Shown piece after piece: positions 10,964 to 30,292 of a stretch of DNA of 32,250 nt. Each line of letters begins with the position of its first letter. Within the stretch, counting starts at the first letter, position 1. The position numbers and the translations under genes are program-made. The notes under the pieces were generated by a model, which was not told the DNA's origin, ran no database searches, and saw only the letters and a program-made list of their open reading frames with translations. This DNA comes from Beijerinckiaceae bacterium (GTDB lineage Bacteria; Pseudomonadota; Alphaproteobacteria; Rhizobiales; Beijerinckiaceae): assembly GCA_947456505.1 (NCBI GenBank), contig CANGTC010000025.1, forward strand, positions 1-32,250, written 5' to 3'.

Positions 10964-10965
10964 GG

Positions 10966-13596: not shown

Positions 13597-13599
13597 CCC

Positions 13600-14604
13600 T
13601 TGCCATCCGTCGGCATATGCAGATTGTGGTTTATGTCGGTCTTAGCTGGCGCTTGCCTTTTCAGCGCCCTGGGTGCGACCTCTGCACGCGCTGCTGGCAC
13701 GGGGCTGATCTTCGTCAGCAATGAGAAGACCAATAATATAATCGTGCTGGATCCCAAGACCTTCGCCGTCGTCAAAGACCTCAAGGTGTCGCGGCGACCG
13801 CGTGATATGCATTTTAATGCGGATCATTCCCTGCTCTACGTGGCCTGTGGTGACGATGACGTCATCGATGTCATCGACGTCGCCAGTTTGATGGTCGTGC
13901 GGAAGATCGCGACGGGCTCCAGCCCGGAAACCTTCGCTCTCGATGAGGCGCGCCATCGCCTCTATGTCGCCAATGAGGAGGGTTCCTCTCTTTCCGTGAT
14001 CGACCTTGATCAGGGCATCGCTGTTCATGAGGTGCCAACGGGCGCGGAACCCGAGGGCGTTTTCATTCAGGAGGATGGCAAGAGCATCTATGTCACCTCC
14101 GAAGTCGGCGATCTCGTGCATCTGGTGGATCCCGAAAGCGGCGCAGTCATGAACGACGTGGTCGTTGGCACCCGGCCGAGACGTTTTGCGGCGACGCCCA
14201 ACGGCAAGGAGCTGTGGGTCACGACGGAAATGTCCGGCGAAGTCTGGATCATTGATCGCGCCACCTTCACCGCCGGTGGAAAAATAAGTTTTTTGCCGCA
14301 AGGCATGCGCAAGACGGACGTAACACCGGTTGGCATCGTCATGACCCGAGATGGCAAGACCGCCTTTGTGACGCTTGGTCATGCGGGCCATATCGCCTTT
14401 GTGGATGTGGCGACCCGCAATGTCCTCGCCTATGTGCTTGTAGGCAAGCGCGCCTGGGGCATCACCCTTTCGAAGGATGAGAAGACGCTCTATGTGGCCA
14501 ATGGGCTCGGCGACGATATCACTCTGGTCGATGTGGCGAGCCGCAAAGCGACGCGTTCCGTGCCGGTCGGGCGTATTCCCTGGGGCGTCGTCATCGATGA
14601 ATAG
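13600..14604 (+). CDS. YVTN-type beta-propeller protein of PQQ-dehydrogenase/ABC systems
   Basis: The 334-residue exported protein has a leader of about 31 residues ending ARAAG. The body is made of about seven repeats of the pattern LYVAxxxxxxVxVIDxxSxxVxxxIxVG, for example LYVANEEGSSLSVIDL and LYVANGLGDDITLVDV. This is typical of periplasmic propellers found with PQQ alcohol dehydrogenases and their ABC genes. The function is not established; a binding or scaffolding role is likely. The start is a TTG with a very good ribosome site. It overlaps the next gene, a binding protein, by 8 bases, so the two are cotranscribed. It has no PQQ-specific residues and is not itself a dehydrogenase. Confidence 0.85.
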   Translation: MPSVGICRLWFMSVLAGACLFSALGATSARAAGTGLIFVSNEKTNNIIVLDPKTFAVVKDLKVSRRPRDMHFNADHSLLYVACGDDDVIDVIDVASLMVVRKIATGSSPETFALDEARHRLYVANEEGSSLSVIDLDQGIAVHEVPTGAEPEGVFIQEDGKSIYVTSEVGDLVHLVDPESGAVMNDVVVGTRPRRFAATPNGKELWVTTEMSGEVWIIDRATFTAGGKISFLPQGMRKTDVTPVGIVMTRDGKTAFVTLGHAGHIAFVDVATRNVLAYVLVGKRAWGITLSKDEKTLYVANGLGDDITLVDVASRKATRSVPVGRIPWGVVIDE

Positions 14605-15811
14605 GCTGCTTCAACTCGTTTTTGCCTTTCTGGTGAGCGCGCCGCTCATGGCGCGGGCCCAGACGCCCGAGGGCGCTTCCTCAGGCAAGCAGAGTCCTTC
14701 TGTCCCCATCGTCTATGTCGAATTGGCGGATGATCCGCGTTATGAGCCGATCCGCGCCTATGGCCGGGTCGTGCTTGAAGCGCGCGATCACCCCTATGCA
14801 GGCGCGCAGGCCGGACTTGAGGACGCCAAGGCCCTCAGCCGCGCCATGGGGGCCGATCATCAGATGTCGCGGATCTCCGTCAAATCCCCAGAGGAGATGA
14901 GCGCCGCCGTGCTCAAAGCGGCGGACGAGGGCGTGAACTTCTTTCTGGTGGACGCGCCCGCCGAGGCTCTGCGACGCGTCGCCGCCGCCGTCAAAGGGCG
15001 AGATGTGCTGCTCTTCAATGTCAGCGCGTCGGAGGATTCCCTGCGGCGGGATCTGTGCGCGGCGGAGGTTGTGCATACAATGCCCAGCCGCGCCCAGTTG
15101 ATGGATGGGCTCACGCAATTTCTGGTGTCTCGAAAATGGCGGGACTATCTCATTTTGCGCGGACCACGCCCAAGCGATGTCGAAACCGCCGCAGCCTTTG
15201 AACGCTCAGCGAAAAAATTCGGCGCACGTATAGTCGCCATACGGGATTTCACCCCGGGCACGGACCCGCGAGAACGAGAGAAGAACAATGTCGGGCTGCT
15301 CAGCGCGATCAACCGGGATTGGGACGTCACCTTCGTTGCGGACGCGGATTTCGATTTCGCGCGCGAGGTTTCCTATCGCACCATCAGGCCACGTCCGGTG
15401 GTTGGCGCAATCGACCTTGAGCCAGTCGCCTGGCACTGGACCTGGGATCACAACGGCGCGCCGCAGCTAAACACGCGTTTCGCGCGTCTCTCCGGAGGCC
15501 GTCATATGGGCGGCGCGGACTGGGGCGCGTGGATGGCGGTCAAGATCATCGCGCAGTCTGCGCTGCGGACAAAATCGGTCGACTTCAAAACCCGCCGTTC
15601 CTTCATCTTGAAGGAGGGCTACTTCGACGGCAATAAGGGGGAGCCCATGAGCATTCGTCCATGGGATCACCAATTGCGCCAGGCGGTCCTGCTGGCGGCT
15701 CCATATTCGGTGGTCGCGGCGGCGCCCATGGAGGGATTTCTTCATCAAAGGGATGTGCTTGACTCACTCGGTGACGATGAGCCCGAGACGCCCTGCCGCC
15801 TGAACAGGTAG
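14597..15811 (+). CDS. ABC transporter substrate-binding protein of PQQ-alcohol-dehydrogenase type
   Basis: The 404-residue exported protein has a Sec leader (1-22, ending ARAQ). The body is a type I periplasmic binding fold with an early VYVELADDPRYEPIRAYG, a GLEDAKALSRAMGA helix, FFLVDAPAEAL, LLFNVSASEDSLRRDLC and a closing GGADWGAWMAVKIIAQ. This is the pattern I associate with the binding protein family found with PQQ-dependent alcohol dehydrogenase clusters, which also occurs in lut loci of methylotrophs. I chose the ATG at 14597, overlapping the propeller stop, because it starts directly with the leader. It would naturally pair with the ABC-2 permease at 8407. Ligand unknown. Confidence 0.85.
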   Translation: MNRLLQLVFAFLVSAPLMARAQTPEGASSGKQSPSVPIVYVELADDPRYEPIRAYGRVVLEARDHPYAGAQAGLEDAKALSRAMGADHQMSRISVKSPEEMSAAVLKAADEGVNFFLVDAPAEALRRVAAAVKGRDVLLFNVSASEDSLRRDLCAAEVVHTMPSRAQLMDGLTQFLVSRKWRDYLILRGPRPSDVETAAAFERSAKKFGARIVAIRDFTPGTDPREREKNNVGLLSAINRDWDVTFVADADFDFAREVSYRTIRPRPVVGAIDLEPVAWHWTWDHNGAPQLNTRFARLSGGRHMGGADWGAWMAVKIIAQSALRTKSVDFKTRRSFILKEGYFDGNKGEPMSIRPWDHQLRQAVLLAAPYSVVAAAPMEGFLHQRDVLDSLGDDEPETPCRLNR

Positions 15812-15840
15812 GCCCCAGTTCGCGTCCTTGATCATGGCCC

Positions 15841-16668
15841 TTGTTTGACCTTCCTCACAAGCCGTCTTATTTCTTTTGTCTGGCGCTCGTCTTATCGACG
15901 ATCTCAAAGTCACTGGTGCAGCCTTTGATAGACGCATCGCAGGATTGCTCTCCCGAAGCGCTTGACGTCTTCATCAGACGCAAAGCCTATAAATCCGCGT
16001 CCGGCTCCCAGATCGAGGTTTTTTCTGACCTGCGCTTTCAGGTGGCCCCCGGGGAGTCGCTCGCCATCATGGGCCCATCGGGTTGCGGCAAGTCCACGTT
16101 GCTGCGCATGATCGCGGGGCTTGATGCGGATTATGAAGGCCGCATCGGTCGCACGGGGGCAGGGCGCACCGGTATGGTGTTTCAGGAGCCTACGCTCCTC
16201 AACTGGCGGAGCGTGGAGGAGAATATCCGTCTGGTGATGCGCGACGACAGCGACGGGGCGGCGGTTCTGGACGGGATCCTCGAGCGCATGGAGATTTCAG
16301 CGCACCGCAACCATTTTCCGGGCGAGCTTTCCGTGGGGCTTGCGCGGCGCGTTGGCATCGGGCGGGCGCTGGCGGCTCTACCGGGTTTGCTATTGATGGA
16401 TGAACCCTTCGCCTCGCTGGATAGCGCCCTTGCGGCGCGCTTGCAGGAGAAGATCAAAAGCGAGCTTGCGCTTCGCCCTGTGACGACGCTGCTCGTCACC
16501 CATAGTTTTGACGAGGCCCTGAGCGTCGCCAGTCGCCTCTTGGTTTTCGCGGCCAGGCCGAGCCGCATCATCGCAGATGTCAAGCTTGATGATAATCTTC
16601 TCGATGCGCCCGCCCATATCGCCACGCTGCGGCGAGAGATCGAGGATGTGATGGCGCAGAACTGCTGA
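15841..16668 (+). CDS. NitT/TauT-type ABC transporter ATPase
   Basis: The ATPase has Walker A GPSGCGKST (78-86 in the longest reading), a Q-loop FQEP, Walker B LLLMDEP (183-189) and the H-loop histidine in VTHSFDEAL. The signature is LSVGLARRVGIGRAL, where most family members have LSGG. The sequence is closest in style to SsuB/TauB proteins, so it probably serves the binding protein at 9231 and permease at 10223, separated by seven genes. The start is uncertain: the TTG at 15841 gives an unusual hydrophobic N-terminus and has no ribosome site; a GTG at 15916 is an alternative. It converges on the TonB receptor, leaving 9 bases. Confidence 0.85.
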   Translation: MFDLPHKPSYFFCLALVLSTISKSLVQPLIDASQDCSPEALDVFIRRKAYKSASGSQIEVFSDLRFQVAPGESLAIMGPSGCGKSTLLRMIAGLDADYEGRIGRTGAGRTGMVFQEPTLLNWRSVEENIRLVMRDDSDGAAVLDGILERMEISAHRNHFPGELSVGLARRVGIGRALAALPGLLLMDEPFASLDSALAARLQEKIKSELALRPVTTLLVTHSFDEALSVASRLLVFAARPSRIIADVKLDDNLLDAPAHIATLRREIEDVMAQNC

Positions 16669-16677: not shown

Positions 16678-19035
16678 TTAGAATGTTGCGCGCGCGCCGA
16701 GGTAAAAGGAGCGCGGCCGCGCCGGGGTGAAGGAGCCGGAATCGGTGAAATGCGCAGAGCTGATTTGCGCCATGTCAAAATAGGTTCCGAAGGTGGCGTA
16801 TCGGCGGTCAAAGAGGTTTTCGACCTTGGCGAAGACTTCGAAGGTCTTGTTTATCCGGTATGAGGCGCCGCCGTTCACTGTGAAATAGGAGGGCAGTGGT
16901 TCATTCAGATTCGCCGCATCGCCTTCCATATATTGCGCGCCCACAAGGATCATATCCGCCCGCACTTTGAAGGCCGGGCTGATGGCGTAGTCAAACCCCG
17001 CCTTCAGACGATGGCGGGGCGACATGGGGATGCGATTGCCCGCCATGACCTGGATCTGCCCATTTTGTTGATCTGCGCGCGGATTGTTCGGGGAGGAAAG
17101 CGTCATCGGATCGGTGAACGTGGCGTCAAGCCATGTATATCCCATGAAAATGTTGAGCTGCTCCCCATGCCAGGAGGCGTCGAGCTCCAGCCCCTGCCTG
17201 CGCACCCCACCCACATTGGCGAAATAGCCAAAGCCCTGGATGGCGCTAGGGATATTCAGGATCTCGTTCTGCGTGTCGGTCCGGAAGAGACCAGCCTTCC
17301 ATGTGACGGGCGAGGCGGCGTTCCATAGGGCGATGGTTCCGCGCAGTCCCGTTTCGAAGGTCGTTGCGATCACCTGCTTCAGAGGCGGGTCCGAGACAAG
17401 AAAGGTGTCGATGATGCAGGGCCGCTGCGGATTTGCGCAGCCAAGTTCCAGGGGGGTCGGCGCACGGCTGGCCTGGGACGCGCCGACATAGGCGCGCAGG
17501 TTAGGCGACAGCCTGTAGGTCAGTCCCACCATTGGATTGAAACGCTGCACATGGGTCACGCCGCTCACGTCGCCGCCCAGTTGATCGGCGAGCTTCAGGG
17601 TCGTCGTATTGAAGCGCCCGCCAAGGGTGGCGGAGAGGTCTTTGGTTAGATCCAGCGTGTCGCTGATCCAGACGCCCGCATTCAGCGAATTGGCGTTGAG
17701 AAGCACCGGACCAATGGAGGTTGGATCTCCCGACGGCCCCAATAAAATTCCGGTTCCTGCAACCCGAAAGTCCGGCCCGATGAGGCCGAGTTCGCTGCGT
17801 GCGTCGAAGCTGGTCGTCGCATAATCAAGGCTGAGACCGAATTGCAGTCTGTTGCCACGCGCCAGAAAAGGATCCGAGTTTGTCGCCTGAACGGCGGCGC
17901 CCATGGTGCGCGATTGGGTGCGGGTTCGGTCGATTTGACCGAGTTGCGCGCCGTTGAACGTGTCCGCCAGTTGAACGCCGGTGAGGCCATTCGCGGGAAC
18001 CTGATCACCACAGTCTCCGAAGTATAGATATCCGTCGCCGCAACCCCGCACCTCGGTTGTGTTGCCATCCGTGTGGTTTCGCTCAAATCCGCGCAGATAG
18101 GCGTTCGCGTCGATGGTCCAGGAAGCGCTGGGGCGCAGGCGGCTGGTGAGGTTCGCCATCACCATGCGCTGGTGGGTTGATTGTGGTGAGGTGTAGATCG
18201 CGCTCCAGTTCTTCTGAAGCAACTCGGTCGGAGCGGCGGCGCTGGCTCCGAAGCTGTTCTTGGCGGCGGAAAGGCTCAAATGCGTCTCGCCCGCATCATG
18301 CATAAAACCTATGTCGCCATAGAAGCGCTTTATGTTGGAGGTTCCACTCTGGCGAAATCCGCCATCGCGGAGAGTCTCCAGCGCCCCATAGGTCGCGGCG
18401 TTATCCACCTGCTTGCCGAATTGCAGGCCGGTGGCGAACCGTCCGTAGCTCCCCCCCTCGGCTTCGGCCTCCGCTCCGCGATAATTGAAACCATCCTTCA
18501 TTTTCAACCGCACTGCGCCACCCAGCGCATTCAGGCCAAAGGTCGGATTGTTGCCGCCCACATCCGCGCGCTCGACCGCGTTTGCCGGGATGAAATCCCA
18601 GTTGACGCTATCGCCGAAGGCTTCGTTGACGCGCACGCCGTTTTGGTAGACCGCGACGCCCTGTGGCGCCCCCGGATTGGGTGAGGCCTCAAAACCCCTG
18701 TAGTTTATGCCTGGCTGCAGATCATTCCCCGTCGTCGCCGTCAGTCCAACGCTGGGGATGCGTCGGTCCAGGGCTCCCGCCACGCCCGCCGCGCCTTGCG
18801 TGAGGTCGGCGCTATCCAGCGATTGCACATTGGCGGGCGCCCTCGACAGGGATTGAGCGCCACCCAATGGGGACGAGCCGACAATATCCAGGATGCGACC
18901 GTCTCCCCGGGGCGCGTCCGTTTCTTGCGCGGACGCCGGGTCGACGTATGCGCAGCCGAGCGCTAGCAGAAGTGAAAGCAAACGATGCCGCAAAAACGAA
19001 CCCCGGCGTCTTGCGACCACCGCTCCTGTTTCCAT
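16678..19035 (-). CDS. TonB-dependent outer membrane receptor
   Basis: The 785-residue receptor has a leader (about 1-36), a short N-terminal segment DGRILDIVGSSP that may contain the TonB box, a plug domain with LDRRIPSVGL and NPTFGLNALGGAVRLKMKDG, and a 22-strand barrel ending in the aromatic ARATF. A TonB-type C-terminal repeat FAKVENLFDRRYATFGTYFD is clear. Such receptors take up scarce metal chelates or large ligands. Its neighbours make a lanthanide or lanthanophore ligand plausible, as with LutH, but siderophore or other substrates cannot be excluded. The ATG at 19035 is preferred to a TTG at 19047. Two inverted repeats lie upstream, between it and the divergent PQQ dehydrogenase. Confidence 0.92.
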   Translation of the reverse strand: METGAVVARRRGSFLRHRLLSLLLALGCAYVDPASAQETDAPRGDGRILDIVGSSPLGGAQSLSRAPANVQSLDSADLTQGAAGVAGALDRRIPSVGLTATTGNDLQPGINYRGFEASPNPGAPQGVAVYQNGVRVNEAFGDSVNWDFIPANAVERADVGGNNPTFGLNALGGAVRLKMKDGFNYRGAEAEAEGGSYGRFATGLQFGKQVDNAATYGALETLRDGGFRQSGTSNIKRFYGDIGFMHDAGETHLSLSAAKNSFGASAAAPTELLQKNWSAIYTSPQSTHQRMVMANLTSRLRPSASWTIDANAYLRGFERNHTDGNTTEVRGCGDGYLYFGDCGDQVPANGLTGVQLADTFNGAQLGQIDRTRTQSRTMGAAVQATNSDPFLARGNRLQFGLSLDYATTSFDARSELGLIGPDFRVAGTGILLGPSGDPTSIGPVLLNANSLNAGVWISDTLDLTKDLSATLGGRFNTTTLKLADQLGGDVSGVTHVQRFNPMVGLTYRLSPNLRAYVGASQASRAPTPLELGCANPQRPCIIDTFLVSDPPLKQVIATTFETGLRGTIALWNAASPVTWKAGLFRTDTQNEILNIPSAIQGFGYFANVGGVRRQGLELDASWHGEQLNIFMGYTWLDATFTDPMTLSSPNNPRADQQNGQIQVMAGNRIPMSPRHRLKAGFDYAISPAFKVRADMILVGAQYMEGDAANLNEPLPSYFTVNGGASYRINKTFEVFAKVENLFDRRYATFGTYFDMAQISSAHFTDSGSFTPARPRSFYLGARATF

Positions 19036-19064
19036 CCCTTTTCTCAAGAATAACTTTATTGCCT

Positions 19065-19306: not shown

Positions 19307-20974
19307 ATGAAAGCAGCGATGACAGTCGCCTTTTGCCTGTTGAGCGGCGTGGCGATGGCGCAGACGGCTCAAGAACTTATTGAAAGCGGCAAGAACACCG
19401 AAAATGTGCCGACTTTCGGCATGGGATACCGTCTCAATCAATATAGCCCACTGAAGCAGATCACCCCCAAGAACGTCAAGCGTCTGGTTCCCGTCTGGAG
19501 CGCCAGCGTGAGCAACGATCAGGGCGAGTTGGCGCAACCGACCATTTACAATGGCGTCATGTATGTGGTGAACGGCAATGGCACCTTCGCCTTTGATGTG
19601 GAGACCGGCGCCAAGATCTGGGCGACCCCCGTTGACTATGACCGGGCCGCCGCGCGCATGAGCAGCGCTGGCCTGAACATGCGCGGTGGAGCGACCATCT
19701 ATAATGGCAAGCTCTACCGCGAGACCATCGATTGCTTCGTCATCGCGCTCGACATGAAGACGGGCAAGGAAGTCTGGCGGCAAAAGTTCGCGGATTTCAA
19801 AGAGGGCTACACCGGCATCATCGCTCCCCTTGTCGCCAATGGCGTGATCATCACCGGCATGGCGGGCGGCGACCGCACCACGCGCGGCTTTCTGAAGGGT
19901 TGGGATCCTGAAACGGGCCAGAACCTCTGGACCCACTACAATATTCCCGCCCCCGGCGAACCTGGCTCCGAGACCTGGCCGAAGGATATTCCAGACGCCT
20001 GGAAATATGGTGGTGGGGCGACCTGGCAGAACGGGTCCTACGACCCTGAACTCGATCTGGTTTATTGGGGCACGGGCAACGCTGAGCCCTATAATCCGAT
20101 TTATCGCGGGGGCAATGACAGTCTCTACACCGCAAGCGTCGTGGCGATCCGTCCGAAGACAGGCGAGCGGGTTTGGCACTACCAATATATCCCCAACGAA
20201 AGCTACGATTTCGATGGAACAGCCGAGCCTGTTCTTGCCGACCTGACCGTCGCCGGGGTGAAACGCAAAGCGCTGATCAGCGCCAATAAAAACGGCTTCA
20301 TGTATGTGATTGACCGTACCAACGGAAAGCTGATCGCCGCCCATCCCTTCGTGAAGGTCAATTGGGCCAGCCATATCGACCTCAAGACGGGTCGTCCCGT
20401 GTTGACGGACGTGCTTGAGCGGGCGATGAAGGGCGAAACGGTTGAGGTTTTCCCCGCACGCGGCACAAACGCCTCGCTCACAGCCTTCAATCCCAAAACC
20501 GGCCTGATTTATGTGAATGCGTGGGAAAGTTCGCGCATCATGAAATACACCAAAGTCGATTTCAAACTGGGGGCGGGTTCAACCGGCATTGAAACCAGCT
20601 TCCGCACGCCGCCGAATGGTGAGCCGTGGGGCTATCACATGGCGTTTGACCCTGTAACAGGCAAGGCCGTCTGGAAGACGCCTGTGCGGGAAACCTACAT
20701 CTCCGCCGGCATGTTGGCCACCGATGGCGGCCTGCTTTTCACGGGTCGCCTGAATGGTGACTTCATCGCGCTGGATCAATCGAACGGCAAAGAACTCTGG
20801 AAGTTCAAGACCGGCTCCGGCATCAACGCGCCCGCCATCACCTATACGGTCAAGGGCAAGCAATATGTGACGATCATGTCCGGAACAGGCGGCGTCCTGA
20901 ATCGTGTCATGAAGGTCGCCGATGTCGCCAATACCGGTGGGTCCGTCTGGACTTTCGCCTTGATGAAAGATTGA
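19307..20974 (+). CDS. PQQ-dependent dehydrogenase without vicinal cysteines (copy 2)
   Basis: The 555-residue quinoprotein has a Sec leader (1-19, ending AMAQ) and propeller motifs such as DMKTGKEVW and DPETGQNLW. The active-site pattern includes D188 in AGGDRTTRG, where XoxF-like enzymes have Glu, N258 in WGTGNAEPYN, and D301-x-D303 in SYDFDG, the pair that in related enzymes includes the lanthanide-specific Asp. It has only one Cys in the mature protein (C143), so the usual vicinal disulfide next to PQQ is absent; Ser119-Ser120 lie near that place. The ATG at 19307 follows a GAGGGGGGAAG site. The downstream cytochrome starts 4 bases after its stop and is probably its electron acceptor. Confidence 0.9.
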   Translation: MKAAMTVAFCLLSGVAMAQTAQELIESGKNTENVPTFGMGYRLNQYSPLKQITPKNVKRLVPVWSASVSNDQGELAQPTIYNGVMYVVNGNGTFAFDVETGAKIWATPVDYDRAAARMSSAGLNMRGGATIYNGKLYRETIDCFVIALDMKTGKEVWRQKFADFKEGYTGIIAPLVANGVIITGMAGGDRTTRGFLKGWDPETGQNLWTHYNIPAPGEPGSETWPKDIPDAWKYGGGATWQNGSYDPELDLVYWGTGNAEPYNPIYRGGNDSLYTASVVAIRPKTGERVWHYQYIPNESYDFDGTAEPVLADLTVAGVKRKALISANKNGFMYVIDRTNGKLIAAHPFVKVNWASHIDLKTGRPVLTDVLERAMKGETVEVFPARGTNASLTAFNPKTGLIYVNAWESSRIMKYTKVDFKLGAGSTGIETSFRTPPNGEPWGYHMAFDPVTGKAVWKTPVRETYISAGMLATDGGLLFTGRLNGDFIALDQSNGKELWKFKTGSGINAPAITYTVKGKQYVTIMSGTGGVLNRVMKVADVANTGGSVWTFALMKD

Positions 20975-20978: not shown

Positions 20979-21311
20979 ATGCGGATCGGCGCATATCTGG
21001 CTGGTTCAGGGTTCGCAGCCCTGAGCCTGCTGTCATCAGGTGTGGCGGTGGCGCAATCAGGCGCTTCATCGCCGGAGCTCGTAGCGAAGGGCGCTGCGCT
21101 TTTCGCTGAGAATTGCCAGACCTGTCATGGCGCCCGCATGCGCAATCCCCAATGGGGGATCGACCTGCGACAATTTCCTCGGGACGGGAACACACGCTTT
21201 GTCAATTCGGTGACTTATGGCAAGCGCCAGATGCCGTCATGGGAAGATGTTTTGAGACCCGAGGATATCGAGGCCCTCTGGGCCTATGTCTCGACCGGCG
21301 ATCCGGACTAG
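20979..21311 (+). CDS. Small cytochrome c paired with PQQ dehydrogenase copy 2
   Basis: This 110-residue exported monohaem cytochrome has a Sec leader (1-26), CQTCH at residues 46-50 and likely axial ligand M85 in RQMPSW. It starts 4 bases after the PQQ dehydrogenase stop with a GAGG site inside the preceding gene's end, so it is cotranscribed and probably coupled. It is a paralogue of the cytochrome at 5507-5824, sharing the DLR, RFxNSVTxGK and LWxY pattern. The role is to take electrons from the quinoprotein to the respiratory chain, as cytochrome cL-type partners do. A bidirectional hairpin follows it. Confidence 0.88.
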   Translation: MRIGAYLAGSGFAALSLLSSGVAVAQSGASSPELVAKGAALFAENCQTCHGARMRNPQWGIDLRQFPRDGNTRFVNSVTYGKRQMPSWEDVLRPEDIEALWAYVSTGDPD

Positions 21312-21356: not shown

Positions 21357-23513
21357 TCAGTGATCGTTATGCCCGCCGGCGCCATGGCCGGGCGCCGCTG
21401 CGACGCCGGGTTTGTCAGCTGCTGGTGAGTCCACCACCACGGCAGCCGCGCCCTTGACCTCCGCTCCCGTCACCACGACTTCGCCGATCATGAAAGGGTG
21501 TGGCGAGCATGTGTAGGTATAGGTTCCCGGTTTGTTGAAGGTCACCGTCGCAGACTGACCGCCCTCCAGCATGCCGGTGTCCCATCCGCCGCCTTGGGAG
21601 GAGGTGGCGTTGTGGGGGGCTTTACCGGTATTGGCGAAGGTGATCTTCGTTCCCGCCGCCACCGTGATCCGCGCGGGGGCGAAGGAGTAGTCCACAAGGT
21701 TGACCCTGGTGGCGCGCTCAAGCGGGCCTGTCAGACCAATCAGTGTCTGGGGCGGTTTGGGCGCCTCCATGGCCTGCAACCGGTCGCCCGGAGTTCCCTT
21801 GAGCGAGAACACCCAGATCATGTCGCCATTCTGGGACGAGGTCTGGATGGAGACGCCGCCCGAGGCGATGGCGACGAATTGTTCGCCGTCGATTTCATAG
21901 GTGATGGCCGGCGCATCGGCGCCGGCGCCGGTCTGGAATTGCCAGAGCAGGTCGCCGGTCTTGTCATCATAGGCCTGGAAATGACCGTCGGGCTCGCCGT
22001 GGAAGACGAGGCCGCCAGCAGTCGCAAGAGCGCCAGAGCCCTGACCGATGGAGTAGGGCATTTTCTTTTGCCATACGATCTTGTTGGTGCGGGAATCGAC
22101 GGCGGTGAAGGTCCCGGCGTTGCGTGCGCCGATGGGCGGCCCAACGGACTTGCCGGTGCCGCGCAGGATGCGACTTTGGGGACGATCCGCCGCCGTCACA
22201 TAGAAATATCCGGTGCGGTGGCTGTAGGCCATGGGAGCCCAGTTCGGCCCGCCATTGCCGCCCGGCGACATGATCAGTGGCTCGTCATAGATCACGCCGA
22301 AGATGCATTTCGTATTCCAGCCTTCCAGCGGCTGGGGACATTGCGGCATGACCGCGTCGCCACGCGGAATGGGCTGGGTGGGAGCGGTGGCGACGCGCGC
22401 ATCCTGCTCCACCGGCTTCTCGTCGATGCCGATCAGCGGCTTCCCGGTGGCGCGGTCAAGCATGTAGAGCCAGCCTGTTTTGCAGGCCTCCACAACGCCT
22501 TTGCGCTTCTTGCCGTCATAAACCTGTTCGAACAGCACCACGGGGCTCGGGCAATCGAAATCCCAGAGATCGTGATGGACCATCTGGAAATGCCACGCGT
22601 AGGATCCATCAAGCTTCAGCGCGACAATAGAGGAGCTGAAGAGATTGTCGCCAGGGCGGTTGATGCCCATGCCGCCAGCCTCAGGGCCCGGATTGCCCGT
22701 GGAGAAATAAATCATGCCCAGTTCAGGGTCGATGGCGGGGGTGTTCCAGACATTTGATCCGCCGGTGGTCCAGGCCTTGGCCCGTTCGGCATCAGGGTCG
22801 TTGGGAGAGGGCCAGGTGTTGCTGCCGAATTCGCCGGGTGCGGGCACGGTCCACCAGGTCCAGTTGATCTTCCCGGTTTTGGCGTCCACCGCCACGACCT
22901 TGCCGCGCGCGCCGCGATCCCCGCCCGATACGCCCGTATAGAGCACGCCGTTGTGGTAGAGCGGCGCGCTGGTGATCGTATAGCTTTCCTGCCACTTGCC
23001 GATTTCGGACTTCCACAGGCGCTTGCCGGTCCTGGCGTCGAGCGCCACCATGTTGCCGTCCAGCTGACCCATGAAAATCTTGCCTTCGCCAATGGCGAGG
23101 CCGCGATTGTCCCAGCCGCAGCAGATGGTGTTGATGTTCTGCTCGATGTTGGAGCGGTATTCCCAGATCAGCGCGCCGGTTTTGGCGTCAAAGGCGAAGG
23201 CGTCATTGTTGCCGGAGGCGATATACATCACACCGTCCTTCACGATGGGCGTACCTTCGAGCGAATACTTGCCGCCTAGCCCAGACCCCAGATGAACCGC
23301 CCAGGCGGCCTTGAGGTTCTTGACGTTTTTCGTGGTGATCTTTGACAGCGTGGAATAACGGGACGCCGACCAGTCGCCCCCGATGGTCGTCCATTCCCTT
23401 GAGGCGGGTCGGGAGAGGTCGGGCGCCTTCTGGGCCGCCGCCGGTCCTGCCGTAAGTGCGAAAATCCCCATGGCGAAAAGTCGAACGAACGCCCCGATCC
23501 CCATGCGCTTCAT
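21357..23513 (-). CDS. PQQ dehydrogenase fused to a C-terminal cupredoxin domain (copy 3)
   Basis: The 718-residue exported protein has a leader (1-28) and a quinoprotein domain to about residue 580, with vicinal C131-C132 (TICCGWDNRG), D199 in SGGDRGARG, N274 in STGNPGPEAGG, and D318-x-D320 in HHDLWDFDCP. HHDLWDFD recalls glucose-dehydrogenase-type quinoproteins, where D-x-D occurs without known lanthanide use. Residues 604-683 form a blue-copper fold: H634 in KAPHNAT and C669, H672 and M675 in YTCSPHPFM make a type 1 copper site. A His-rich tail (GHGAGGHNDH) follows. The copper domain probably takes electrons directly from PQQ, replacing a separate cytochrome. An internal ATG at 23504 is an alternative start. 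Monocistronic as far as seen. Confidence 0.92.
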   Translation of the reverse strand: MKRMGIGAFVRLFAMGIFALTAGPAAAQKAPDLSRPASREWTTIGGDWSASRYSTLSKITTKNVKNLKAAWAVHLGSGLGGKYSLEGTPIVKDGVMYIASGNNDAFAFDAKTGALIWEYRSNIEQNINTICCGWDNRGLAIGEGKIFMGQLDGNMVALDARTGKRLWKSEIGKWQESYTITSAPLYHNGVLYTGVSGGDRGARGKVVAVDAKTGKINWTWWTVPAPGEFGSNTWPSPNDPDAERAKAWTTGGSNVWNTPAIDPELGMIYFSTGNPGPEAGGMGINRPGDNLFSSSIVALKLDGSYAWHFQMVHHDLWDFDCPSPVVLFEQVYDGKKRKGVVEACKTGWLYMLDRATGKPLIGIDEKPVEQDARVATAPTQPIPRGDAVMPQCPQPLEGWNTKCIFGVIYDEPLIMSPGGNGGPNWAPMAYSHRTGYFYVTAADRPQSRILRGTGKSVGPPIGARNAGTFTAVDSRTNKIVWQKKMPYSIGQGSGALATAGGLVFHGEPDGHFQAYDDKTGDLLWQFQTGAGADAPAITYEIDGEQFVAIASGGVSIQTSSQNGDMIWVFSLKGTPGDRLQAMEAPKPPQTLIGLTGPLERATRVNLVDYSFAPARITVAAGTKITFANTGKAPHNATSSQGGGWDTGMLEGGQSATVTFNKPGTYTYTCSPHPFMIGEVVVTGAEVKGAAAVVVDSPAADKPGVAAAPGHGAGGHNDH

Positions 23514-24127
23514 CCTTTTTCTTCTTTGGTCCTTCGAGGGACCGGGAGGCATGATAGCCGACAGTCGCATATCGCAAGCGCCGTGCCCTTGAATGTGGTC
23601 CCTTGACGCTCAAATTTCAAGCCTGAAATAGGCTCCGTAAGGAGCCCTCCATTGCTTGATTTGGGGCGCCAGGCATCAGCTTTAAAAATCCGGCGGGGTA
23701 TAAAACACCCTTTCAATCAGGGGGGTAACCCATGGTGGCCAAGGCTTTGAAAGCAACCGGATTGGCGGTCGACGCCCCTGTCATGGCGAGCGAGCCAGAC
23801 GCCCGCGCGGGGGATCTATGTCCGCGTCGGAATCGATGCGCCGCCCATGACCTATGAGGTCGACGGCAACCAATATGTCGCCATAGCCACGGGTTTGACG
23901 GGCGATCAGATGGCAAGGCTCGGGCGGCCCCCCGAAATGAGGGATATGGCGAAGAACACCAGAATGATCTTCGTTTTCGTCTTGCTTAGCGGCAGAACTG
24001 CCCCAGGATCGCCGACAAAACGCGCGCCGAGGGATCGGATTGGCGTCACGCCTCTTGCCGCGCCGCCTATTGCGGGTAAATTGAGGCGCCGGCCCAGACA
24101 TAAGAGACCGGATCGGAGGAGCCCATC
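23514..24127. other. Intergenic region between divergent PQQ dehydrogenases
   Basis: This 614-bp gap contains the decayed PQQ dehydrogenase 3' remnant at 23811-23990 and, before it, a short frame from an ATG at 23732 (41 codons) with a GGGGGGT ribosome-like site. I cannot assign that frame. It may be the surviving start of the same lost gene after an internal deletion. Just before 24128 is the GGAGG site of PQQ dehydrogenase copy 4. Confidence 0.55.
23811..23990 (+). pseudogene. Remnant of a PQQ dehydrogenase C-terminus
   Basis: The plus-strand frame reads GIYVRVGIDAPPMTYEVDG, then NQYVAIATGL, and later TRMIFVFVL. This matches the end of the intact copy downstream, which reads NAPPMTFEVGG, KQYLAILSGL and TMLWVFGL at similar spacing. 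The rest of the dehydrogenase is missing, and no stop follows the expected C-terminus, so it is a decayed fragment. It lies 138 bases upstream of copy 4 and in the same direction, suggesting a former tandem copy or a recombination scar. The exact left edge is uncertain. Confidence 0.7.
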
Positions 24128-25858
24128 ATGTCTCGATCCAAATTGCGATCCCTCACCCCCTCACGCGCCGCCTTGCTTGCGACTGGCGCGCTCGCTGCTG
24201 TGATGCTCGCCGCACCGGCTCTCGCCGCCGAGGTGACGCCACAACGGCTCGCCAATCCGGAGCCCGGCAACTGGCTGATGAACCATCGCACCTATGACGG
24301 CCAGCGGTTCTCGCCACTTGAAAAGATCAACAAGCAGAATGTGAAGGGCCTGAAGCTCGCTTATGCCGTGGCCATCGGCGGCGCCTCGCCCAACGAAAAC
24401 CTTCAGGCGACCCCGCTGGTCGAAGACGGCTATATGTATCTCGTTGACCAATGGGGCGTCGTCTACAAGATCGACGTGCGCTCCGGGGAGACCGGGCGCA
24501 TTCTCTGGCGCATGGATCCCGGTCAGGAGAAGCTTCCTCTTTCCAATCGTGGCGCGGCCCTTTGGGGCAATCTGGTGATCTCGGTCGCCAATAGTCCTTC
24601 GCGGGTCATCGCCACCAACAAGGACACCGGCAAGGTGGTCTGGGAGACCAATCTTCACGATCAGCCGGACCTGCAGATCACCGCAGCCCCTCTGGCGATC
24701 AAGGACAAGATCTTGATCGGCGCCGCAGGCGGCGACCGGGGCGTGCGTGACTGGATCGCCAGTCTGGACGCCGCCACCGGCAAGGAGGTCTGGCGGCGCT
24801 ACATCATCCCGGCGCCGGGCGAGCCGGGCAGCGAGACCTGGAAAGACAAGAACAACGCCTCGAAAACGGGCGGCGGCGCCATGTGGGTGACAGGCACCTA
24901 TGATGTCGCGACCAACCAGACGATCTGGGGCTCGGGCAATCCAGTTCCCATGTTCGACCCCACCTATCGCCCCGGCGACAACCTCTTCACCAACAGCGCC
25001 ATTTCCTACAATCCGGACGATGGCAAGATGAACTGGTACTTCCAGTTCACGCCCGGCGATATGTGGGACTATGATGAGGTCGGCAGCCACATCATGTTCG
25101 ACGCGACCATGAATGGGCAGAAACGGACGCTGGTGACCCATTCCGGCCGCAATGGCTTCCTCTATACCTATGAGCGCGCAAACGGCCAGTCGCTGCTCGC
25201 CAAGCCCTATCTGGACAATGTGAACTGGACCAAGGGCATTGACCAGAAAACCGGCAAGCCGCTCGACTACGATCCGACCAAGGATATCCAGACCTATGCG
25301 GGCGTCGCCAACCAGACGCCAGACAAGCCGACCCGGAAAATGTGCCCGTCCCCATCGGGCGGTAACAATTTCTGGCCCTCGAGCTACAGCCAGCGCACCA
25401 AGATGGTCTATATCCCCGCGCTGACAGTCTGCGCCGACATTACCCTGCGCCCCGAGCTCAGCAACAAGGCGGGGGACTGGAAGGGCGGCGCCTATAAGGT
25501 TGCGGAGCGCTGGGAGACCGAATTCTCCATCGCCGATCCGCTGACCGGCGACATCAAGAAGAAAGTGAAGATCCCCTATGCGGATTATTCGGGGGCGCTG
25601 TCGACCGCCGGTGGGCTGGTCTTCACCGGCTTCAACGACGGCTCCTTCATCGCCTTTGATGACGAGACGCTGGAGCAGGTCTGGAAGATCAATGTGGGAA
25701 CGGGCTTCAATGCGCCGCCCATGACATTCGAGGTCGGCGGCAAGCAATATCTCGCGATCCTCTCGGGCCTCAGCCCCATCGCTCGCGGCAAGAACGTCAA
25801 CTCGCCGGAGTTGAAAGAACAGCGCAACCAGACCATGCTATGGGTCTTCGGGCTCTGA
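24128..25858 (+). CDS. PQQ-dependent dehydrogenase without vicinal cysteines (copy 4)
   Basis: The 576-residue quinoprotein has a Sec leader (1-34, ending ALAAE) and propeller motifs such as DAATGKEVW. Active-site residues include D203 in AGGDRGVRD, N271 in WGSGNPVPM and D314-x-D316 in MWDYDEVG, the second Asp being the position used as a lanthanide ligand in XoxF and ExaF. The site of the usual Cys-Cys pair reads EKLPLSNRG, so the vicinal disulfide is absent. The ATG has a GGAGG site 8 bases upstream. A hairpin and a cytochrome c gene follow. The substrate is unknown; low similarity in the cap region to copies 1-3 suggests a different substrate. Confidence 0.92.
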   Translation: MSRSKLRSLTPSRAALLATGALAAVMLAAPALAAEVTPQRLANPEPGNWLMNHRTYDGQRFSPLEKINKQNVKGLKLAYAVAIGGASPNENLQATPLVEDGYMYLVDQWGVVYKIDVRSGETGRILWRMDPGQEKLPLSNRGAALWGNLVISVANSPSRVIATNKDTGKVVWETNLHDQPDLQITAAPLAIKDKILIGAAGGDRGVRDWIASLDAATGKEVWRRYIIPAPGEPGSETWKDKNNASKTGGGAMWVTGTYDVATNQTIWGSGNPVPMFDPTYRPGDNLFTNSAISYNPDDGKMNWYFQFTPGDMWDYDEVGSHIMFDATMNGQKRTLVTHSGRNGFLYTYERANGQSLLAKPYLDNVNWTKGIDQKTGKPLDYDPTKDIQTYAGVANQTPDKPTRKMCPSPSGGNNFWPSSYSQRTKMVYIPALTVCADITLRPELSNKAGDWKGGAYKVAERWETEFSIADPLTGDIKKKVKIPYADYSGALSTAGGLVFTGFNDGSFIAFDDETLEQVWKINVGTGFNAPPMTFEVGGKQYLAILSGLSPIARGKNVNSPELKEQRNQTMLWVFGL

Positions 25859-25867: not shown

Positions 25868-25905
25868 TCCGACGCGGGGTTGCAAATCCGTGTCCCCGCG
25901 TCGGA
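25868..25905 (+). terminator. Long hairpin between PQQ dehydrogenase copy 4 and its cytochrome
   Basis: A perfect 12-bp stem (TCCGACGCGGGG with CCCCGCGTCGGA at 25894-25905) encloses a 14-base loop. No T-tract follows, so it is more likely a partial terminator or a 3' stabiliser that sets the ratio of dehydrogenase to cytochrome. Confidence 0.65.
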
Positions 25906-25939
25906 ACAGATTTATCCATGCAAGGATTTGGTCGCTGCT

Positions 25940-26374
25940 ATGAAATCCGGACGCCTCTCATACGCCTTGCTGTCAGCCGTTTTTTGTCTGGCCAGCGTCT
26001 CCGTTTCGACCCCGACGAGCGCGCAGGACGTCTCCTTTGGGCAACGCCTGTTTCAGGACAAGGCGGACTGCAAATTCTGCCATGGCGCTGAAGGCGATGG
26101 GCGCGGCGATCCGCGCTCCCCAGGCGCCGCCGCCAACTTGCGCCAGACCATGCTCAACAAGCTACAGCTCGCCGAGGTGATCGCCTGCGGGCGCCCCGGC
26201 ACGGAAATGCCCCATTTCGACAAATACGCCTATGACGATGATACGCCCTGTTATGGCATGAAATCCGCGGATGTAGGCTCAGACCGGCCCCCCGATCCTC
26301 ATTCGACGCCTTTGACGCGTCGCGAGATAGAAGCGGTCGCTGACTATATTCTGGGCGCTTTTGCAGGCAAGTGA
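25940..26374 (+). CDS. Cytochrome c following PQQ dehydrogenase copy 4
   Basis: The 144-residue exported monohaem cytochrome has a Sec leader (about 1-28, ending TSAQ), CKFCH followed by GAEGDGRGDPRSPGAA, then VIACGRPGTEMPHFDKYAY, a DTPCYGM stretch and a closing REIEAVADYIL. This pattern is unlike the two short cytochromes at 5507 and 20979 and looks like a separate family of cytochromes beside quinoproteins. The likely axial Met is in GTEMP. I chose the ATG at 25940; an in-frame TTG at 25880 would fall inside the hairpin. AAGGA lies 13 bases upstream. Probably the electron acceptor for copy 4. Confidence 0.85.
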   Translation: MKSGRLSYALLSAVFCLASVSVSTPTSAQDVSFGQRLFQDKADCKFCHGAEGDGRGDPRSPGAAANLRQTMLNKLQLAEVIACGRPGTEMPHFDKYAYDDDTPCYGMKSADVGSDRPPDPHSTPLTRREIEAVADYILGAFAGK

Positions 26375-26493: not shown

Positions 26494-28248
26494 TCAGGCG
26501 CGCCGTGGTTCCTTGGCCGCGTTTGTTCCGGCTATGAAGCCTTGGCATGTAGCGCGCGCCAGTCCATGCAAACTGAAGCCGCCTGCGGACTCGCCACCGC
26601 AATAGAGACCGGGAATGACTTCCCCGGCCATATCGACGACCTGACATTTTGCGTTGATGCGAAGGCCAGCGCGCGTGTCATGGAGGACAGGCGTCGCCCA
26701 AGCGGCGTAAAATGGCGCTTTGGCGATTTTATAGAGTGGTTTGGGCTTGCCAAAATCATCATCCTTGCCGGAATCGACGAAGGAATTGTAACGCGCGACT
26801 TCGGCTTCCAGGTTTTCAGGCGGCATCGGCAGGCGTTGATATTTCATTTTGATTTTCTGCGCGAGCTCACCCAGCGTGTTGGCGCTGAAGAAGAAGCCAT
26901 TGGCGGGATCCGTGTTGGGAGGATTCACATCCCACTTTTCACGCGTCACCGCATCGGCGTCGAAGATGGCCCAGATTGGGCCGCCGCCATTATGACCATC
27001 GCCAATGCCCGCCATGGCGGCGTTGAGATAATTTCGCGGGTTCCATTTCAGATTCTTGGCGTTGAGATAAGAGTTCGGCACGTAATCTTTATTGACGCCA
27101 TAATTGTCCGAGGCGAATTGTGGTCCCGTTTCATCATAAAAGCGTTTTCCTAGCATATTGACGGTAATGACATCCTGCCAATCCTTCACGGGGAGGCCCG
27201 TCGCGCGGGCTTTGTCAAAGACCTCGCTACCCGGAAAGAAGCGGAGATTCACATAGCCATATTGTCCACCAATGGTTCCTGGCTTTGTGATGCCGGATCC
27301 AAATTCCCCGGTGTTGTTGGCAAGTCCCCAAAGGGCGGCGCCGATCTCCATGCCGGCTATTTCGCCGCTAGCGTCCTGGTAAGACCATGGGGTGCCAGCT
27401 ACGCCGCAATATTCCTCGGTCAGTCGCGGATCGAACATGCGCCGGAACTGGACATTGGAGGTTGACCCGCCTGTCCCCAGAATAACCGCCTTGCGCGCCC
27501 TTATATGGACAGGACGTCCATTGGCTTCAGCCATGATCCCCGTCACCGGTCCCGATTTCCCATTCTGGCGATGAATTGATTTCATCTTGTGGGAGGTGAG
27601 GATTTTAATGCCCGCTTTTCGCGCGGCTGCGATCAACGGGTGCATCAGGCCATTGCCCGTGGAAATCGTCAGCCTGTCTTCAGGTTTGGCCGGTTTGCCG
27701 GTCTGAATGAGGGGCCAGTCCACGGGGGCGCAGTGCATTTCCCTCGGCACTGAAGAGCCGACCGAATTTCCGCCACGCGTATCAGGCGCCTTGTCCACGA
27801 GGACGACGCCGTGCGAAACCAGAAAGTCATGGGTGGCGACGTTATTGTCAGCGTAGGCGCGTATGATTTCCCGGTCGTTGAAACGATAATCTGTGGAGCC
27901 ATTGGCGCTTGTCACCGACCAGTCGGTCAGATCCTGGAAGAGGAGATCCGGGGAGTCTTTCACGCCCCACTTTTTCTGGAAACTGGTCCCGCCGCCAAGG
28001 GGAAGATTGCCGCCGCTGCAGATCGCATGGCCACCCAGATGACTTTCTGCTTCGACGAGGATGACCTTCGACCCGGCCTCGTGCGCGACGAGCGCAGCCG
28101 GCAGGCCTGTGGCGCCCGCGCCGATCACGACTATATCCGCGTCATAATCCCATTTTACAGTGCGTTTCGTTTGCGCTTGAGCGGGCGCGGCGGTCAGCGC
28201 CGCTACGCCAGCGCCGCCAGCGAGCAATTTACGTCGGTCGATGGTCAT
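26494..28248 (-). CDS. Tat-exported FAD-dependent oxidoreductase (fumarate reductase / flavocytochrome c family)
   Basis: The 584-residue product begins with a twin-arginine leader (IDRRKLLAGG, cleavage near residue 26). An FAD-binding motif GAGATG (43-48), the VEAESHLGGHAICSGGN segment, GTGGSTSNVQFRRMF in the middle and the closing GLYCGGESAGGFSLHG follow, as in FAD-binding-2 proteins such as fumarate reductase flavoproteins and ketosteroid dehydrogenases. It lacks a haem motif. I chose the ATG at 28248 because AGGAGGA lies 7 bases before it. The substrate is not determinable. It is divergent from the peptide-binding lipoprotein gene, sharing a 361-bp regulatory region with a palindrome. Confidence 0.88.
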   Translation of the reverse strand: MTIDRRKLLAGGAGVAALTAAPAQAQTKRTVKWDYDADIVVIGAGATGLPAALVAHEAGSKVILVEAESHLGGHAICSGGNLPLGGGTSFQKKWGVKDSPDLLFQDLTDWSVTSANGSTDYRFNDREIIRAYADNNVATHDFLVSHGVVLVDKAPDTRGGNSVGSSVPREMHCAPVDWPLIQTGKPAKPEDRLTISTGNGLMHPLIAAARKAGIKILTSHKMKSIHRQNGKSGPVTGIMAEANGRPVHIRARKAVILGTGGSTSNVQFRRMFDPRLTEEYCGVAGTPWSYQDASGEIAGMEIGAALWGLANNTGEFGSGITKPGTIGGQYGYVNLRFFPGSEVFDKARATGLPVKDWQDVITVNMLGKRFYDETGPQFASDNYGVNKDYVPNSYLNAKNLKWNPRNYLNAAMAGIGDGHNGGGPIWAIFDADAVTREKWDVNPPNTDPANGFFFSANTLGELAQKIKMKYQRLPMPPENLEAEVARYNSFVDSGKDDDFGKPKPLYKIAKAPFYAAWATPVLHDTRAGLRINAKCQVVDMAGEVIPGLYCGGESAGGFSLHGLARATCQGFIAGTNAAKEPRRA

Positions 28249-28609
28249 CCCGTGTCCTCCTGACATCTTGCGCACTTTTTCTCGGGGCGCTGCTTTGGAG
28301 TATAGGGACCGTTATCGCCTGCGATCAAGCGTTTGCTGGGGGCTTTGTTTTGCGCCGGCGCAAATCGGCTCGCCGCCCGGGTCGCTTCCCGAAGCCTGCG
28401 GTAGATGTTGAAACGTCGATGCGCGAGGGGCCCCGGTAAAGAACACGGGAGTTAAAAACAAGGGAATTCAAACAAGAAGATTTCATAAGCTCTTTCTGCG
28501 CGCATCAGCTTGATATAAACTTGAATACGCCTTCAAAAACCCGACGCGCAGCCTATGCGTCACCGTTTTCAATGGAAGGGGGCGATAGGTCAGCGAGGTT
28601 GTCGACATC
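28249..28609. other. Divergent intergenic region, 361 bp
   Basis: This region separates the FAD oxidoreductase (minus) and the peptide-type binding lipoprotein (plus). It contains the palindrome at 28349-28364. The right half is less GC-rich than its surroundings and probably holds the plus-strand promoter, but I could not assign -35/-10 boxes with confidence. No gene is seen. Confidence 0.55.
28349..28364. promoter_or_regulatory. Palindromic candidate operator TTTGCGCCGGCGCAAA
   Basis: A perfect 16-bp palindrome lies 101 bases upstream of the FAD oxidoreductase start and 246 bases upstream of the lipoprotein start. It fits the same TnTGCG-N4-CGCAnA pattern as the site at 8092-8107. Confidence 0.45.
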
Positions 28610-30292
28610 ATGTCTTGCACAGCTATCTTTCGTTCCGCCTTCGCAGCTCTGGCCTGCGTCATCCTTGTGGCCTGCAATCAGAGCGATACGAAAACCGCGT
28701 CACCCAAGCAGGCGTCGTCCGCGCCGCCAGTCGTGGCAGGCGGCTCCAAAAGCAAGTTGAGCATTGGTTTGCCTTCGCTGGGCACTGCGGAAAATTACTT
28801 GCCGTGGCTGGAAGCAGGAAGAGAAGGCTGGGTTGTCCTTGGCGCTATATATGAATCGCTCATCGATTCAGATCCGATCACGGGTGAGTATCGCCCTTTG
28901 TTGGCTGATCGTTACGAAGTGGAGGATGCTGGAAAGCGTTGGCGCTTTTTTCTTCATAAGGGCGCCAGATTCCATGATGGAAGCGAGGTGACCGCAGAGG
29001 ACGTTAAATATTCATTTGAGATGTATGTCACCGATCGGTCGGTGAATTCTTCGAAACCAGTGTTTGCGGCGCTCGTCGACGCCGTGCAGATCGTCAATCC
29101 CTATGAAATCGTTTTCAATCTCAAGCAAAGCGATGTCACTTTCCTCGGCCGTTTCGGCAATTCCGCATTCGGCGTCGTCTCGAAGTCCTATGTCGAGCGC
29201 ATTGGCGAAAAGGAGGCCGCCGCCAAACCCATGGGGTCTGGTCCCTATAAATTTGTCGAACATAAGCGTCAGGTTTCCGTAACCTTTGAGGCTGTGCCTG
29301 ACCATTGGAAGGAAAGCGCTCGTTTCAAGACGCTGGAGTTGCGCCGTATCCCTGACCAATCCGCGCGGCTCGCCATGCTGCGGGCAGGAGAAATCAATGT
29401 TACGGAAGTCCCCTTCAAGTTAAAGCGTGAGGCGGAAGCCTCCGGCATGAAATTTATCAAATTGCCTTTCGCCTCCATTTATCATGTGCAACTGGGCGGA
29501 CAGTTGTTGGCGAACCGGGATACATTTGACGCCAATGTGCCTTGGGTCGGTGACTACAATGATCCCCTGAGCCAGAAAAAGGCCCTTCTGGTGCGCCGCG
29601 CGCTCAATCTTGCGGTGGACAAACAGGCGATCATCGAGGGCGTATTTGAAGGGGAGGGGGTCCCGGCGGTGACGCCCTTTTTCGTTCCGGGCTCGGACTT
29701 TGTCGCCGCAGACATGCAACCCTATCCCTATGATCCGGCAGAGGCCAAACGCCTGATGGCGGAAGCCGGCTATGGGAATGGGTTTGCGCGGGAATTCGAG
29801 ATGCTTTTAATGCCCTGGGTCGGACGTTCTGAAATGGTCGACGTCAGCGAAGTCGTAGCCGGTTTTTGGGAGCGTAATCTCGGACTTAAAATCAAGCGGC
29901 GGCCCATCGATTTCGGCAACTATGCCGCCAATGTCGGGGGCCCGCGAAAGACGCCCTGGGTCACCTGGGCGCAGGGTTTTGGTCCTCGCCCCATGCATGA
30001 ACCGATCGGCGCGATGGACACCTGGCTCATGACGACGGCGCGCTACAACTCAGTCGCCGAGAAAAAGGAAATCGATGAGTTGGCGAATTCCATAAGAGCC
30101 GAGGTGGATCAGGGGCAGCGCGCAGAGCAATACCGCGCTCTCGCAAGATTGTTTTATGATCAGTATTACGCCGTCCCCATCGCAGGCGTGCCGTCGCTTT
30201 ATGCTTATGATCCCCAAGTTGTGGCGGGATGGCAGTCTCAACCCGGAGATAGTTATATGGGGGGCTATCATCGGGCTATTCCTGCTCAATGA
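28610..30292 (+). CDS. Peptide/nickel-type ABC substrate-binding lipoprotein (family 5)
   Basis: The 560-residue product has a lipoprotein leader with lipobox LVAC (C22), then a Ser/Pro-rich linker and a solute-binding family 5 domain: WVVLGAIYESLIDSD, YRPLLADRYEVEDAGKRW, FHDGSEVTAEDVKYSFE and RRALNLAVDKQAI. These proteins bind oligopeptides, glycosides or metal chelates for Dpp/Opp-type importers. The permease and ATPase genes are not next to it in the window, unless they lie beyond the right edge. The ATG has a GAGG 13 bases upstream, so the start is reasonable. Codon use seems slightly more AT-rich than the PQQ genes. Confidence 0.9.
   Translation: MSCTAIFRSAFAALACVILVACNQSDTKTASPKQASSAPPVVAGGSKSKLSIGLPSLGTAENYLPWLEAGREGWVVLGAIYESLIDSDPITGEYRPLLADRYEVEDAGKRWRFFLHKGARFHDGSEVTAEDVKYSFEMYVTDRSVNSSKPVFAALVDAVQIVNPYEIVFNLKQSDVTFLGRFGNSAFGVVSKSYVERIGEKEAAAKPMGSGPYKFVEHKRQVSVTFEAVPDHWKESARFKTLELRRIPDQSARLAMLRAGEINVTEVPFKLKREAEASGMKFIKLPFASIYHVQLGGQLLANRDTFDANVPWVGDYNDPLSQKKALLVRRALNLAVDKQAIIEGVFEGEGVPAVTPFFVPGSDFVAADMQPYPYDPAEAKRLMAEAGYGNGFAREFEMLLMPWVGRSEMVDVSEVVAGFWERNLGLKIKRRPIDFGNYAANVGGPRKTPWVTWAQGFGPRPMHEPIGAMDTWLMTTARYNSVAEKKEIDELANSIRAEVDQGQRAEQYRALARLFYDQYYAVPIAGVPSLYAYDPQVVAGWQSQPGDSYMGGYHRAIPAQ

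Follow-up and report, generated by a model that had tools for sequence, protein, structure and literature searches.

Copy 3, one of the four PQQ-type dehydrogenases encoded in the window (the whole 32,250-nucleotide stretch of DNA analyzed here), is very likely a PQQ-dependent dehydrogenase that is exported and carries its own one-electron acceptor, a cupredoxin in place of heme c. Discussion of how electrons leave PQQ enzymes has mostly centered on hemes. We also consider it likely that copy 3 represents a "quinocuproprotein" type of dehydrogenase, with type 1 copper as the internal acceptor, and that its lineage switched between copper and heme at one linker while the propeller stayed nearly unchanged. 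The main interest of the system lies in this exchange of copper and heme on one propeller. An initial sequence-only reading had proposed a PQQ propeller followed by a fused C-terminal cupredoxin, and this architecture was borne out by profiles, PDB sequences, a structural model and conservation. The features of copy 3 are as follows, with residues counted from the ATG at 23570 (the earlier reading counted from M20, an offset of 19):

21357-23570, minus strand: copy 3, 737 aa from the ATG at 23570, PQQ propeller and C-terminal cupredoxin
23513, minus strand: alternative start of copy 3 at M20
23433-23513, minus strand: putative export signal, residues 20-46, read by eye from the translation
21771-23423, minus strand: PQQ-dependent dehydrogenase propeller, residues 50-600 (Pfam PF01011, 2.3e-97; Foldseek 1kv9, PedH, XoxF)
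23118-23123, minus strand: adjacent Cys150-Cys151, kept in 13 of 13 aligned sequences
22554-22562, minus strand: putative catalytic Asp337 and Asp339 (HHDLWDFD motif), kept in 13 of 13, from alignment to PedH
21705-21770, minus strand: proline-rich linker, residues 601-622, point of module exchange in sister genes
21465-21704, minus strand: cupredoxin domain with amicyanin-type CxxHxxM loop, residues 623-702 (profiles, PDB sequences, model)
21612-21614, minus strand: predicted copper ligand His653, from alignment
21507-21509, minus strand: predicted copper ligand Cys688, from alignment
21498-21500, minus strand: predicted copper ligand His691, from alignment
21489-21491, minus strand: predicted copper ligand Met694, from alignment
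21360-21464, minus strand: variable His-containing tail, residues 703-737, with dN above that of the domains

Copy 3 matched the Pfam profile PF01011 with 327.6 bits (cut-off 26.7). Its score against TIGR03075, the methanol/ethanol subfamily, was 413.8 bits and fell under the curated cut-off of 480.05; we class it as a relative of that subfamily and not as a member. The full-length model had a pLDDT of 80.0 and a pTM of 0.81, with block pLDDT values of 54-85 in the cupredoxin part. Its best Foldseek matches were the quinohemoprotein alcohol dehydrogenase 1kv9 and PedH, with XoxF also among the matches. The heme c motif CxxCH is absent from copy 3.

Residues of the PQQ site were compared in 13 sequences, namely 12 complete copper-type sequences and one cytochrome-bearing ortholog (L128). 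The C-C pair, Asp, DxD, Lys and Asn-Trp residues were retained in all of them. We take Cys150-Cys151 to be the disulfide found beside PQQ in quinoprotein alcohol dehydrogenases, and the catalytic role of Asp337 and Asp339 is assumed alongside the alignment to PedH. An active-site Asn is changed to Gln in 2 of the 13 sequences, and where PedH has GGE, every one of them, copy 3 included, has GGD. Both substitutions would fit a reading in which the copper domain is an electron inlet or a copper store and the propeller no active dehydrogenase; so would the His and Met residues in the C-terminal tails and the PQQ synthesis genes, none of which scored over cut-off. This reading appears highly improbable to us given the catalytic Asp, C-C pair and DxD motif kept throughout, the ped-like gene cluster nearby, and copy 2, which also carries GGD and scores above the NCBIfam threshold set for PQQ alcohol dehydrogenases. 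Copy 3 is predicted to load PQQ and to be active as a dehydrogenase.

Regarding the C-terminal domain, the complete type 1 copper ligand set named by the sequence-only reading was recovered as His653, Cys688, His691 and Met694 (its own numbers plus 19), and the span that it gave for the domain, 21465-21704, corresponds to residues 623-702 and is the same as that of the domain match. Pfam Copper-bind (PF00127) matched residues 626-700 with 53.3 bits (cut-off 21.2) and Cupredoxin_1 scored 42 bits (cut-off 27). The closest solved sequences are amicyanins (1id2, 3.2e-10), and six of seven residues of the ligand loop are the same (CSPHPFM in copy 3, CTPHPFM in 1id2). On the amicyanin equivalog TIGR02657 the domain reached 54.3 bits, under the cut-off of 110.2, and we regard it as amicyanin-like and not as an amicyanin proper. 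Modelling of the domain from seven rows returned the expected cupredoxin fold with a pLDDT of 89.8. Foldseek placed 9cck (1.9e-8) and 6hbe (8.3e-8), two copper enzymes with fused cupredoxins, at the top, followed by amicyanins. The four ligands were intact in all 12 complete cupredoxin-bearing homologs aligned, and the ligand set of copy 3 is therefore no chance match. The domain is predicted to load copper.

The earlier description of a His-rich tail after this domain held in part: every one of the 12 tails contains at least one His, but the sequence is variable, with no fixed motif. When the 12 copper-type sequences were read by eye, at least two His were counted in 8 of the tails, and Met-rich stretches in several. 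The tail drifts faster than both domains (dN 0.186 and dS 1.183 between the window and its ortholog L118). A conserved metal site in the tail found no support, the 12 tails sharing no fixed motif. A role of the His- and Met-containing tail in copper loading is possible.

The best evidence for the function of the cupredoxin as an electron acceptor comes, at the level of sequence, from its replacement by a cytochrome c. In the L128 protein (genome G689), the propeller and the proline-rich linker of the copper orthologs lead into a cytochrome c domain (CSPCH; Cytochrome_CBB3 38.1 bits, cut-off 27). The ortholog of genome G670 is split over two contigs, which agree across an overlap of 47 residues, and the second of them (L140) shows a cytochrome c end (CATCH; Cytochrome_CBB3 33.2 bits, cut-off 27). 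The contig of the relative L014 ends short of the C-terminus, and it is the G670 contig L140 that matches it and shows the cytochrome c. Between them, the cytochrome domains of L128 and L140 share 45-46% identity, and their resemblance to nine other cytochromes is weak (best E 3e-4). The propellers of L128 and of the copper-bearing L120 are 90% identical, and in a propeller-only tree L120, L128 and L129 (the latter a partial row from G670) form a clade with 100/99 support within the copper clade.

Copper and heme modules share one slot behind the linker. Two assemblies show the swap, which is therefore not the product of a single chimeric contig. Constraining all copper rows to one clade lowered the log-likelihood by 18.7 with a p-AU of 0.064; since this constraint stands unrejected, there may have been one swap or two. 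Because the cupredoxin is replaced at the same place by another one-electron carrier, it would itself serve as an electron acceptor, and one electron acceptor seems to have been exchanged for another on the same enzyme in evolution. The internal wire from PQQ to copper suggested by the sequence-only reading thus gains independent support from two orthologs within the genus that carry cytochrome c at this position, the transfer itself being a prediction.

To assess the distribution of the fusion, genomes of the genus, order and phylum and a plasmid collection were searched. Propeller and cupredoxin are fused in 11 of the 51 genomes of the window's genus (its own and ten others), and two further genomes carry the same propeller with another C-terminus. 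No ortholog was seen in the remaining 38, many of which are incomplete; 10 of these 38 have other PQQ dehydrogenases (E <= 1e-60). A peptide-pattern scan (six patterns, one genome per species) returned at least 594 relatives. Among the best 80 of these were five complete fusions (L009-L013), besides L014, cut by its contig end, and L017, which belongs to a clade lacking the copper ligands; the closest named carriers among the same 80 were two Beijerinckiaceae metagenome bins. Four of the ten other carriers of the genus are L009-L012 again. Adding L013, whose bin is assigned no further than Alphaproteobacteria, to the 11 from the genus gives the 12 complete copper-type sequences. In the order, 1 of 297 genomes matched at E <= 1e-100, and this was the window's own. 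In the phylum, a match was found in 32 of 398 genomes (E <= 1e-80), and among the 20 loci examined for an in-frame cupredoxin the window's own genome was the only one of copper type, while G636 and G476 were of the ligandless clade. The plasmid collection gave 634 records with matches, 22 of them spanning at least 80% of the query; among 20 of these 22, four reached residue 686 or beyond, all of the ligandless kind.

Both domains are under constraint. Between the window and L118, the closest ortholog, dN and dS were 0.034 and 0.892 for the cupredoxin and 0.048 and 0.731 for the propeller. Across six orthologs, the cupredoxin had a lower dN than the propeller in three cases and a higher one in the other three, and its dN was always well under dS; purifying selection acts on both domains. 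This selection bears on the notion that assembly or annotation joined two genes in a metagenome bin, to which we give next to no weight. All of the named carriers L009-L013 come from MAGs, and completeness and contamination of the window's own bin are 88% and 6%, but 12 separate genomes share the reading frame and the junction, which rules out a gene-fusion artefact of one bin, and the frame has no internal stop. On the sequences compared, we conclude that the PQQ-cupredoxin fusion is a real conserved family.

The next relatives after the copper family, among the best 80 of the at least 594, were an Actinomycetes bin sequence (L016, 43% identical) with a C-terminal cytochrome c and a Gemmatimonadetes bin sequence (L015, 49% identical) without a C-terminal domain. 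Six cytochrome-bearing relatives from the searches formed a clade separate from that of copy 3, in a tree from which the PDB quinohemoprotein sequences were left out. Remote cupredoxin-like quinoproteins without the ligand loop occur in beta-proteobacteria and actinobacteria. The clade comprises seven sequences, from Rhodoferax (L017), Streptomyces (L089), Variovorax (L090 and L091) and Nonomuraea (L092), together with L098 and L099. All seven have a cupredoxin-like C-terminus lacking the C-x2-H-x2-M loop, as judged by alignment for L017 and by eye for the other six. A Cys shifted by one place persists in five, and these sequences could hold some other metal site. Of the five that were scanned with Pfam Cupredoxin_1, two gave matches below cut-off and three gave no match. 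One tree places the copper and ligandless clades as sisters with 88/83 support, and a quick tree leaves them unresolved; both remote groups served as outgroup in the 20-row propeller tree. One ancestral fusion with later loss of the copper site would be the simplest story.

As the remote clade shows, a cupredoxin-like domain can be retained where the ligand loop, and with it the type 1 site, is missing. Such a domain would then serve in some other way, and this, together with the two cytochrome c genes in the locus of copy 3, would suit a scheme in which the copper-binding cupredoxin serves mainly for partner docking or protein stability, PQQ electrons going directly to a separate cytochrome c. 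We think this unlikely: it sits poorly with the four ligands found intact in 12 of 12 homologs, and it does not predict a redox domain, the cytochrome c, in the slot of two orthologs. The reading of the cupredoxin as internal acceptor is accordingly preferred in what follows.

Copy 3 can be compared with several known systems. Type II quinohemoprotein alcohol dehydrogenases (1kv9, 1kb0, 1yiq) likewise join a PQQ propeller to a one-electron domain on a C-terminal linker, but this domain holds heme c where copy 3 has a cupredoxin. Of the hallmarks of these enzymes, copy 3 thus shows the C-terminal module on a linker and lacks the heme c motif CxxCH; the module behind its linker is presumed to be redox-active. 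The lanthanide-dependent PedH and XoxF (6zcv, 6dam) are the closest solved propeller sequences and share the DxD motif. Unlike copy 3, they have no fused redox domain, and a Glu of PedH is Asp in copy 3. The DxD motif is also found in membrane glucose dehydrogenase and therefore does not fix the metal choice of copy 3. Amicyanin is the acceptor of a TTQ quinoprotein, and its complex with methylamine dehydrogenase (1mda) has the same CxxHxxM copper loop as copy 3; there the two are separate proteins and the cofactor is TTQ, whereas copy 3 is fused and of PQQ type. Partner-fused copper nitrite reductases are known with azurin (HdNiR) and with cytochrome c (RpNiR), in addition to TsNirK (6hbe), and PMC9358711 describes the copper nitrite reductase core as occurring fused to azurin in some enzymes and to cytochrome c in others. 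In structure, the copper domain of copy 3 comes closest to the cupredoxin-fused multicopper oxidase 9cck and to 6hbe. In contrast to copy 3, the nitrite reductases and 9cck are reductases or oxidases that take electrons in, and they have no PQQ.

Copper as the acceptor of a PQQ enzyme is an older idea, because a proposal for the thaumarchaeal PQQ enzymes has their electrons delivered to the quinone pool or to blue copper proteins acting as separate partners (PMC7300363). Within the open-access PMC literature searched, no description of a PQQ-cupredoxin fusion or of a copper/heme swap was found, nor any set of described enzymes with this architecture, for which the sequence-only reading had asked to look.

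The preferred mechanism would run as follows. Copy 3, presumably exported, would oxidize a substrate, probably an alcohol or a sugar, in its propeller, at PQQ beside Asp337 and Cys150-Cys151. The two electrons would leave PQQ singly for the type 1 copper of the amicyanin-like domain, which the flexible linker would allow to reach the PQQ face. The next carrier after the copper domain could be a soluble cytochrome c or an oxidase. In this scheme, the cupredoxin would play the role of the heme c domain in quinohemoprotein alcohol dehydrogenases. We infer the PQQ-to-copper transfer, the substrate, the partner and the distance between the domains. The orthologs offer a natural matched set, with nearly the same propeller on a copper or a heme acceptor. 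Comparing its copper and heme members would show what the kind of acceptor, its potential and the supply of metal (copper versus iron) mean for a quinoprotein. The copper form is also a possible template for heme-free direct-electron-transfer enzymes in biosensors and fuel cells.

Analysis of the gene environment gave the other dehydrogenases and cytochromes of the window:

6279-8204, minus strand: copy 1, PQQ-type dehydrogenase
19307-20974, plus strand (ORF listed from 19166): copy 2, PQQ dehydrogenase that lacks a redox domain at its C-terminus
20979-21311, plus strand: cytochrome c directly behind copy 2 (Cytochrome_CBB3, 1.8e-14)
24128-25858, plus strand: copy 4, PQQ dehydrogenase divergently oriented to copy 3
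25880-26374, plus strand: cytochrome c directly behind copy 4 (Cytochrome_CBB3, 8.5e-07)

The remark in the first reading that no cytochrome gene adjoins copy 3 is correct for its own strand, but the convergent cytochrome c at 20979-21311 lies about 45 bases away. Copy 1 has no cytochrome c gene behind it either, so that the missing neighbor is a weak argument for an internal wire. In the other carriers, L009 has a divergent ortholog of copy 4 with its cytochrome gene, as in the window, and in L011 a CxxCH protein with no Pfam cytochrome match is encoded on the same strand, about 1 kb further along and past a gene of opposite orientation. Rough gene lists showed no CxxCH protein near L010, L012 and L013, the contigs of L010 and L012 being short. 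Searches of the host genome with PF00127 found copy 3 and one other protein of cupredoxin type, in a frame of 211 aa on contig 217, and those with PF00115 one oxidase fragment at a contig end; neither search tied an electron partner to copy 3.

A ped-like cluster occupies 8407-16668 on the plus strand. It contains a PedC-type permease (TIGR03861) and a PQQ-associated propeller (TIGR03866), both over cut-off, a binding protein near TIGR03863 (PQQ-system) that scored below cut-off, and an ABC ATPase, an NMT1-type binding protein and a permease. The surroundings of copy 3 suit a PQQ system. The host itself seems to be without PQQ synthesis. The pqqC search of its genome gave no match, and its control was silent as well; over cut-off, pqqC was found in none of 25 genus genomes, the window's own included, versus 4 of the 16 genomes sampled from the order's other families, and two weak matches of 47-48 bits occurred in the genus. 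The pqqE match in the window's own genome, at 38 bits, was below cut-off, as were all 14 controls. With neither gene over cut-off, PQQ import would be needed, unless the genes are missing from an incomplete genome (88%).

A TonB-dependent receptor (16678-19047, minus strand) adjoins the quinoprotein genes and has a counterpart in L009 (10335-12644, plus strand). It is a candidate importer of PQQ or metal, and it scored 85 bits against PqqU (cut-off 1200). According to PMC12124388, PqqU is largely missing from Alphaproteobacteria.

Sulfur oxidation genes adjoin the PQQ island at 1337-4616 (plus strand), encoding a flavocytochrome c sulfide dehydrogenase flavoprotein, a SoxZ-containing protein and a SoxA-type cytochrome. 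Downstream from copy 4, at 26494-31828, are genes for a flavocytochrome-c-like FAD protein, a family 5 solute-binding protein and an FAD monooxygenase. The number of PQQ dehydrogenases (E <= 1e-60) varies widely in the genus, with 10-11 matches each in genomes G665, G686 and G689 and none in 28 of the 51, which is a strong expansion of PQQ dehydrogenases inside one genus.
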